Below, one piece after another: positions 56,632 to 58,767 of a DNA stretch of 64,000 nucleotides; position 1 is the first letter of the stretch; each line of letters begins with the position of its first letter. A program made the position numbers and the translations under genes. The stretch covers positions 1 to 64,000 of the forward strand of contig NZ_KB899415.1 in NCBI RefSeq assembly GCF_000378205.1, read 5' to 3'. Under the pieces are notes generated by a model. It saw only the letters and a program-made list of their open reading frames with translations. It was not told the DNA's origin and did no database searches. This DNA is from Sediminispirochaeta bajacaliforniensis DSM 16054. GTDB lineage: Bacteria; Spirochaetota; Spirochaetia; DSM-16054; Sediminispirochaetaceae.

Positions 56632-58767
56632 TTGTCGTCAATGGATAATTTCAAAGAAACTTTTCGTGAAGAGGCTTTCGAACTTCTGGCGTCTTTGGAA
56701 AGCGATCTTCTCGAATTGGAGTCGAGCCCCGATGATAAGGAGCTTGTGTCGTCGGTCTTTCGTGTGATGCATACGATAAAAGGATCTTCGGCCATGTTCG
56801 GCTTCGATGCGATTTCGGAATTTACCCATGAAGTGGAATCTTTTTTTGATAAAGTACGAAACGGCGAATTACACATCGATCGGCAGATAATCGATGCCAC
56901 TCTTTCGGCAAGGGATCTTATCCGGGAAATGCTGGAAGAGGAAGGGGATTCTAACGAACGAAAAGAGGAGTGTGAAGCGGTTCTTCAGACCTTTCGGACG
57001 CTTGCGCAGCAGGCGAAGGGAGAGGAATCTTCTGATGTGGAAACAGAGGGTGAGGCTGAAGAAGCGGTTTCCGAAATGGAAAAGGAGGAATCGAATCAGG
57101 AAGAGGTGACGTACCGAATTCGTTTTGTTCCACCTTCTTATCTTTTTAAATCGGGAACTAATCCCATACTGCTTTTGCGTGAGCTTCGGGAACTCGGTGA
57201 TTGCACGATCATTCCCCGCCTTGATTCTATCGAAGGATTGAAGAAGTTCGATCCCGAATCCTGTTTTTGCAGCTGGGAAATCATCTTAACAACAAAAGCC
57301 GATATCAACGCCATACGCGATATCTTTATTTTCATCGAATCGGATTCGACGATTCAAATCGATACCATTGAAAGTTTCAGCGATATGATTGAAAACTCTC
57401 CGTCAAGGCGACTGGGAGATATTCTTCTCGAACGCGGAGTGATCAGTGAAGAGACCTTGAAGGAGGCTCTCGGAAAGCAGAAACGTCTTGGAGAAGTGCT
57501 TGTCGAAACAAAGGCTGTTTCCCGTGGCGATATTTCGGCTGCCTTGCAGGAACAGGAGCATGGCAAGCGTGTCCAGGAAAAAAGAAGTGCAACCCTCGGA
57601 AAAGCGGGAATGTCGATAAGAGTTGCAAGCGATAAACTCGATTCTCTGGTGGATCTCGTCGGAGAACTTGTTACCGTTCAGGCCAGAATCAGCCAACTGG
57701 CTGCTCAGGAGAATGACGCATCCGGCCATCTGCGCCTTGTCTCCGAGCAACTTGAGCGGTTGGTTGAAGAGCTTCGGGATAATACCATGAGCCTCAGAAT
57801 GGTTCCTATCGGTACCACCTTCAGCAAATTTCGTCGTTTGGTCAGAGATCTTTCCCTGGAATTGGGGAAAAAGGTTGAATTACAGGCAGAGGGGGCCGAA
57901 ACCGAGCTCGATAAGACGGTTATCGAACAGCTGGGTGATCCCCTTGTCCATCTGATCCGTAACTGTATTGATCACGGTATCGAAATGCCTGAGGTCCGTT
58001 CTTCCTGCGGTAAGCCTGAGGTTGGAAAGGTTCTCCTTTCGGCCCGGCATGTGGGAGCCACGGTCCAGATTTCCATCGAAGACGACGGTGGAGGGCTTGA
58101 TCGTGCTGCAATATTGGCGAAGGGCGTCGAACGCGGGCTCCTTTCACCCGACGGAAAGCTGAGTGACGAGGATATTTTCCAGACGATATTCCTTCCCGGA
58201 TTTTCCACTGCAAAGAAGATCACCGCCGTTTCCGGACGCGGGGTGGGGATGGATGTTGTTAAACAGCAAATTGAGGCCCTGCGGGGCTCCGTCTTGATTT
58301 GGAGTGAAGCGGGAAAAGGCACCCGAATTACTATTTCGTTGCCGCTTACCCTCGCCATTGTAGATGGATTGCTTGTCCGGGTGGGTGAAGAGTTTTTTGT
58401 TGTACCCCTTTCTGTGGTTGAGGCGTGTGTTGAGCTGGATGAAAACGCAGCAGAGGAACGCGGTAGGCGGCGGCTTCTTGAATTCCGTGAAAAACTGCTC
58501 CCCTATGTTCGCTTGGATGATCTTTTCGATCTTCCTAGTGATGATACCCCTCTTCGGCAGGTTGTTGTGACCGAGCTCGATTTTACCAGATTCGGTATTG
58601 TCGTTGATGAAGTCATCGGGGACCATCAGACGGTGATAAAGAGCCTGGGTCCGCTCTATCAACGCGTGGAAGGGGTTTCCGGAGCAACTATTCTCGGTGA
58701 TGGAAGGGTGGCTCTCATTCTTGACATTCTGCAGCTTGCAAAGATTTCTGCTGCCGTTGCCGGATGA
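56632..58767 (+). CDS. cheA: Chemotaxis histidine kinase CheA with MshEN-like tandem motif (711 aa)
   Basis: Domains in order: Hpt (P1) with His47 in M-H-T-I-K-G; an acidic linker; a ~90-residue CheY-binding-like region (~165-255); two adjacent 24-residue segments (260-283 and 285-308) of the R-L-G-x2-L-x3-G-x6-L-x3-L-x2-Q type; P3 dimerisation; ATPase with L-I-R-N-C-I-D-H-G and G-R-G-V-G-M-D-V; and a CheW-like domain. Start TTG 56632 is chosen because GAAGGAG lies 8 nt upstream, whereas ATG 56641 would be 17 nt away. The first 24-residue segment fits the c-di-GMP-binding MshEN consensus exactly and the second partly. Followed by cheR and cheB; no cheW or cheY is adjacent. Confidence 0.92.
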   Translation: MSSMDNFKETFREEAFELLASLESDLLELESSPDDKELVSSVFRVMHTIKGSSAMFGFDAISEFTHEVESFFDKVRNGELHIDRQIIDATLSARDLIREMLEEEGDSNERKEECEAVLQTFRTLAQQAKGEESSDVETEGEAEEAVSEMEKEESNQEEVTYRIRFVPPSYLFKSGTNPILLLRELRELGDCTIIPRLDSIEGLKKFDPESCFCSWEIILTTKADINAIRDIFIFIESDSTIQIDTIESFSDMIENSPSRRLGDILLERGVISEETLKEALGKQKRLGEVLVETKAVSRGDISAALQEQEHGKRVQEKRSATLGKAGMSIRVASDKLDSLVDLVGELVTVQARISQLAAQENDASGHLRLVSEQLERLVEELRDNTMSLRMVPIGTTFSKFRRLVRDLSLELGKKVELQAEGAETELDKTVIEQLGDPLVHLIRNCIDHGIEMPEVRSSCGKPEVGKVLLSARHVGATVQISIEDDGGGLDRAAILAKGVERGLLSPDGKLSDEDIFQTIFLPGFSTAKKITAVSGRGVGMDVVKQQIEALRGSVLIWSEAGKGTRITISLPLTLAIVDGLLVRVGEEFFVVPLSVVEACVELDENAAEERGRRRLLEFREKLLPYVRLDDLFDLPSDDTPLRQVVVTELDFTRFGIVVDEVIGDHQTVIKSLGPLYQRVEGVSGATILGDGRVALILDILQLAKISAAVAG

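Follow-up and report, generated by a model that had tools for sequence, protein, structure and literature searches.

The chemotaxis histidine kinase CheA encoded in the window (the whole 64-kb stretch of DNA analyzed here) contains a tandem of two 24-residue motifs, at aa 260–308, that the evidence supports as related to the MshEN domains. This segment probably constitutes a compact MshEN_N-type c-di-GMP receptor, tethered between the P2 and P3 domains, which would modulate CheA phosphotransfer. We infer c-di-GMP binding, its affinity and its effect on the kinase from conserved residues and structural models.

The CheA gene (56632–58767, plus strand, as are all features below) encodes a protein of 711 aa, with TTG as start codon and a Met at aa 4. 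Its Hpt, H-kinase_dim, HATPase_c and CheW domains all score above their Pfam cut-offs. These correspond to P1 (PF01627, 63.4 bits; aa 9–103, 56656–56940), the P3 dimerization domain (PF02895, 43.9 bits; aa 328–387, 57613–57792), the P4 ATPase domain (PF02518, 54.5 bits; aa 436–573, 57937–58350), and the P5 or CheW-like domain (PF01584, 86.4 bits; aa 579–703, 58366–58740). The full domain complement of a CheA protein is thereby present, and CheA structures are matched down to E 4e-123. A P2-like region at aa ~160–245 (57109–57366) is conserved in orthologues, whose alignment across phyla gives the pattern TYRI.F.P...GTNPL..L.EL ... DVFIFVE. Searches of Pfam and of PDB sequences returned no match to this region and no solved relative, so that a CheY-binding role is assigned to it by position only. 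The tandem lies between the P2-like region and the dimerization domain, where the first-pass annotation had placed it. Directly upstream of cheA is a gene for a STAS-domain protein (PF13466; 56282–56611), and downstream are genes for a CheR methyltransferase (PF01739; 58774–59622) and a CheB methylesterase with a receiver domain (PF01339, PF00072; 59631–60713). Homologues of these neighbors occur at homologous loci in at least 33 (STAS), 47 (CheR) and 64 (CheB) of the best 80 of 537 related stretches.

Nucleotides 57409–57555 translate to RLGDILLERGVISEETLKEALGKQ-K-RLGEVLVETKAVSRGDISAALQEQ. The first-pass annotation had described a first motif in full agreement with the MshEN consensus, a second lacking the Gly and one Leu, and a spacer of one residue, and all three points were borne out. 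Motif 1 (aa 260–283, 57409–57480) matches all eight fixed positions exactly, motif 2 (aa 285–308, 57484–57555) matches six of eight, with Lys294 in place of Gly10 and Ile301 in place of Leu17, and Lys284 alone (57481–57483) separates them. Translated in all six frames, the window holds the strict motif a single time; 1.7e-6 occurrences would be expected by chance in a protein with the composition of CheA, and the chance of a second copy (at least six of eight positions, nine possible spacers) is ~9e-5. The ligand-contacting residues R/K1, L2, G3, L17, L21 and Q24 are found in both motifs, save that Ile301 replaces Leu17 in motif 2. The segment departs from the canonical domain at two points. 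The turn Gly at position 10 is kept in motif 1 (G269) and replaced in motif 2 (K294), and the spacer is one residue where the canonical MshEN spacer is five, within a domain of 53 residues (PMC5013675). The canonical spacer of about 23 residues given in the first-pass annotation was mistaken; the shortening amounts to four residues, or roughly one helical turn.

Profile searches place the segment in the MshEN family by one of two routes. The NCBIfam model NF053729 (c-di-GMP_motif, MshE-related) matches aa 260–308 with 50.3 bits (E 1.5e-13; cut-off 38) over positions 1–53 of its 53-position tandem, which makes the segment a member, while the Pfam MshEN model PF05157 gave no match in CheA at E up to 10 and none in the genome at E ≤0.001. 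A profile of 67 homologues, searched against PDB sequences, finds PilF (E 9.7e-24) and MshE (5HTL; E 1.8e-9), the latter with a single alignment gap, of four residues, at the spacer. Together with the predicted fold, the NF053729 match and these matches to solved c-di-GMP-binding domains support the MshEN relationship that had been proposed. The Pfam families DUF4388 and FumaraseC_C also touched the tandem segment, each below its own cut-off.

Two template-free AlphaFold2 models were built, one of aa 257–315 (59 aa, 67 sequences) and one of aa 248–326 (79 aa, 65 sequences). The shorter model (pLDDT 88.9, pTM 0.69) has the four-helix bundle of MshEN_N, with two helices in motif 1 (aa 261–268 and 273–280), one in motif 2 (aa 286–292) and a last one at aa 298–314. 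It superposes on c-di-GMP-bound MshE (5HTL; Z 9.7, 1.5 Å, 54 residues) and on PilF GSPII-B complexes with c-di-GMP (1.2–1.8 Å), and rows of the fold search beyond the MshEN/PilB family reach Z ≤5.0 (fumarases included, VIA-align). In both models the helices are separate, four in number and mostly above pLDDT 90. In CheA, linkers often form helices and have low complexity, which would favor a plain helical linker that resembles MshEN by chance. This reading, which the first-pass annotation had set against its own, is scarcely credible. It is refuted by the score with the curated NF053729 (E 1.5e-13), by a spacer and residues that are invariant across phyla among the best 80 of 537 stretches, and by the models, in which the superposition of aa 257–315 on 5HTL shows that the segment is not a plain linker.

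The longer model (pLDDT 85.8, pTM 0.53, high local confidence) parts from the shorter one at one point. Its helix 2 runs to aa 282 and its helix 4 to aa 324, and its fold search returned no MshEN match. This makes the closed fold construct-dependent, although a missing match is not in itself a sign of a different fold. Neither the analyzed loci nor viral contigs contained a canonical-spacer protein to serve as positive control for the comparison of the two models. CheA dimerizes through P3, and shortening of a hinge is a general cause of domain swapping. If a one-residue spacer disfavors folding back, motif 1 of one CheA protomer might pair with its partner's motif 2, and the dimer would then be clamped near P3 by c-di-GMP. 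The extended helix 2, low pTM and missing MshEN match of the 79-aa model are in keeping with such a swapped receptor, as is an (MshEN_N)2 homodimer to which Wang et al. 2016 refer (PMC5013675). Against it, the 59-aa monomer closes onto 5HTL despite the short spacer, with helix 2 ending at aa 280, and the linkers to P3 vary in length; we regard a swapped receptor as very unlikely. A related proposal, which we rate as quite unlikely, is that in a conserved clade of CheA kinases the hinge-shortened domain would switch between a closed, ligand-binding form and an open, cross-dimer form, with c-di-GMP thereby setting the P1–P2 arms and the kinase output.

A scan with one genome per species yielded 537 related stretches, and the best 80 of these were analyzed; unless stated otherwise, the counts in this paragraph refer to those 80. 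They come from Spirochaetota, Thermodesulfobacteriota, Nitrospirota, Deferribacterota and other phyla. The spacer is exactly one residue in 80/80, a figure that gives no estimate of prevalence because the stretches were picked by similarity, and it remains one residue throughout an alignment of 81 CheA proteins (K in 64, R in 13, Q in 3 and P in 1). In motif 1, K/R at position 1 is found in 80/80, G3 in 79/80 and G10 in 80/80, while Q24 is kept in 68/80 and replaced in 12/80, nine of these by Lys. Helix 2 of the 59-aa model ends at aa 280 and the turn spans 281–285, which may explain the lower conservation of the motif-1 Gln. The CheA proteins with Lys for this contact Gln (L043, L047, L059, L077, L079, L091, L100, L101, and L102) include many from Deferribacterota, and all keep the motif-2 Gln. 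Motif 2 has G3, L21, E23 and Q24 in 80/80 and R/K at position 1 in 73/80, with Gly at position 10 in only about half (40/80; 40/81). In 66 of 81 sequences, neither motif has lost any of its six contact positions. The extension of helix 4 (aa 309–324, 57556–57603), which the 79-aa model shows as helix as far as aa 324, conserves E-H-[VLI]-[KR] and basic residues. The linkers flanking the tandem vary, with 25–30 residues from P2 and 16–25 to P3.

These patterns bear on whether the domain still binds its ligand. XpsE is a MshEN domain that has lost binding (PMC5013675), and with this precedent the CheA segment might likewise be a former c-di-GMP domain whose four-helix fold was kept for packing or partner docking. 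The spacer that is four residues short, the loss of motif-2 Gly10 in this protein and half of its homologues, and the replacement of the motif-1 Gln in 12 of the best 80 would fit such a loss, and the new invariant E23 with the conserved basic extension of helix 4 could point to another contact surface. On the other hand R/K1 and Gln24, which make polar contacts and are unneeded for folding, are kept in both motifs together with the ligand-contacting Gly3. The motif-2 Gln is present in 80/80, and none of the best 80 of 537 shows the changes known from XpsE (Gly to Val/Leu, Gln to Val). Moreover, the domain is absent from GGDEF-poor genomes (see below). We therefore consider lost binding unlikely and retain the reading as a c-di-GMP receptor.

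The history of the tandem was traced in a tree of the P3–P5 domains of 88 CheA proteins, built by a quick method with SH-aLRT support and no bootstrap. CheA proteins with the compact tandem form one clade (61 rows, SH-aLRT 100) that holds Spirochaetota, Thermodesulfobacteriota, Nitrospirota, Deferribacterota and others. Exceptions within it are a spacer of 2 (L021), a spacer of 4 (L034), and three members without the tandem. The tandem is ancestral to this clade and the three tandem-less members represent two independent losses. In these three (L115, L116, and L117; genomes of 1.0–1.8 Mb) a low-complexity or unrelated linker replaces the tandem. The 17 tandem carriers examined in the clade have 14–41 GGDEF matches per genome (3.5–10.2 per Mb) and the three tandem-less genomes 1, 2 and 4 (0.8–2.2 per Mb); the genome of the CheA described here has 16 GGDEF, 4 EAL and 8 PilZ matches. 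Retention of the tandem is thus correlated with c-di-GMP-rich genomes, an association that is suggestive only, because there are only two independent losses and small genomes confound GGDEF poverty.

Among relatives, 22 of 60 genomes contain a match to the segment, nearly always within a CheA frame. Further CheA groups have tandems with spacers of 2 or 5–8, and typical spirochaete CheA proteins (770–880 aa) are without the tandem. The same genome encodes two more full-length CheA proteins from other groups of the tree, one with a spacer of 2 (L002) and one with no tandem (L120). The former, a multi-Hpt CheA (859-aa frame with two Hpt matches, contig G000:C7), likewise has its tandem right before P3 (G000:C7:124151-124300; 46.6 bits with NF053729). 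Unlike the compact type it belongs to a separate CheA clade, has the spacer of 2, and its motif 1 starts with PLG. Elsewhere (G000:C17:111952-112095; L003:1492-1683) a stand-alone protein of 63 aa, MTERIGDYFVRLELLSFEQAEQVLAVQQEQPNRRFGEIAVELGFIGEEDIKSYKRYCAEKDGS, consists almost wholly of a MshEN-like tandem; it scores 37.4 bits with NF053729 (cut-off 38) and overlaps the start of a membrane-protein gene.

Among the closest known systems, MshEN_N of Vibrio cholerae MshE (5HTL) shares with the CheA segment the two RLG...G...L...L..Q motifs and the four-helix bundle. It differs in its spacer of 5 and in what comes next, which is MshEN_C and an ATPase where CheA has P3 (PMC5013675). GSPII-B of Thermus thermophilus PilF (8PDK) has the same fold and a motif-1 Lys, as do most CheA proteins with the compact tandem; its spacer is of canonical length, it belongs to a pilus ATPase, and its C-terminal subdomain adds to an affinity of 6 nM (PMC11731258). 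Because this domain binds at 6 nM with Lys167 and Leu196, which widened the consensus to (R/K/L)LG (PMC11731258), Lys at the first motif position is compatible with binding. MshEN_N alone suffices in MshE, where residues 1–62 bind c-di-GMP at 0.35 μM (PMC5013675), and PilF 159–221 binds at 54 nM (PMC11731258); the C-terminal MshEN subdomain is dispensable for binding. The C-terminal MshEN domain of E. coli NfrB likewise represents a c-di-GMP allosteric input outside the secretion ATPases, in this case on a glycosyltransferase, with binding and function tested by experiment where those of CheA are predicted (PMC8669469). An association of CheA with MshEN was already reported by Wang et al. 2016, who list CheA carrying MshEN as an architecture; it may or may not be of the compact type, as their main text describes neither its sequences nor its spacer or function (PMC5013675). 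Our literature search, which covered mainly the main texts of open-access papers, found no experiment on, or description of, a CheA with the one-residue spacer, and it is this form and its breadth that are new.

As a receptor, the four-helix domain would hold a single c-di-GMP between motifs 1 and 2, arranged pseudo-symmetrically, and would sit on flexible tethers with the P1–P2 arms on one side and P3 on the other. Binding could then modulate phosphotransfer, either through access of P1/P2 to P4 or through partner recruitment. Unwinding of the first turn of helix 1, as occurs in PilF on c-di-GMP binding (PMC11731258), is a plausible first step. The variable linkers on both sides favor steric or docking control of the P1–P2 arms over a rigid rod. 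A rigid helical signal into P3 is disfavored in particular by the linker from Q308 to P3, which takes nine different lengths.

The known routes by which c-di-GMP acts on chemotaxis run through PilZ adaptors and through receptors that contain PilZ. The conserved motifs and predicted fold suggest that this messenger of sticking versus swimming may also act directly on the chemotaxis kinase. If the domain binds, its one-residue spacer would broaden the MshEN binding motif beyond the form defined in the literature. A receptor domain inside CheA would place the swim-or-stick messenger on the central kinase itself, and since the compact module occurs in at least four phyla, binding would mean a direct c-di-GMP input to a large group of chemosensory systems.
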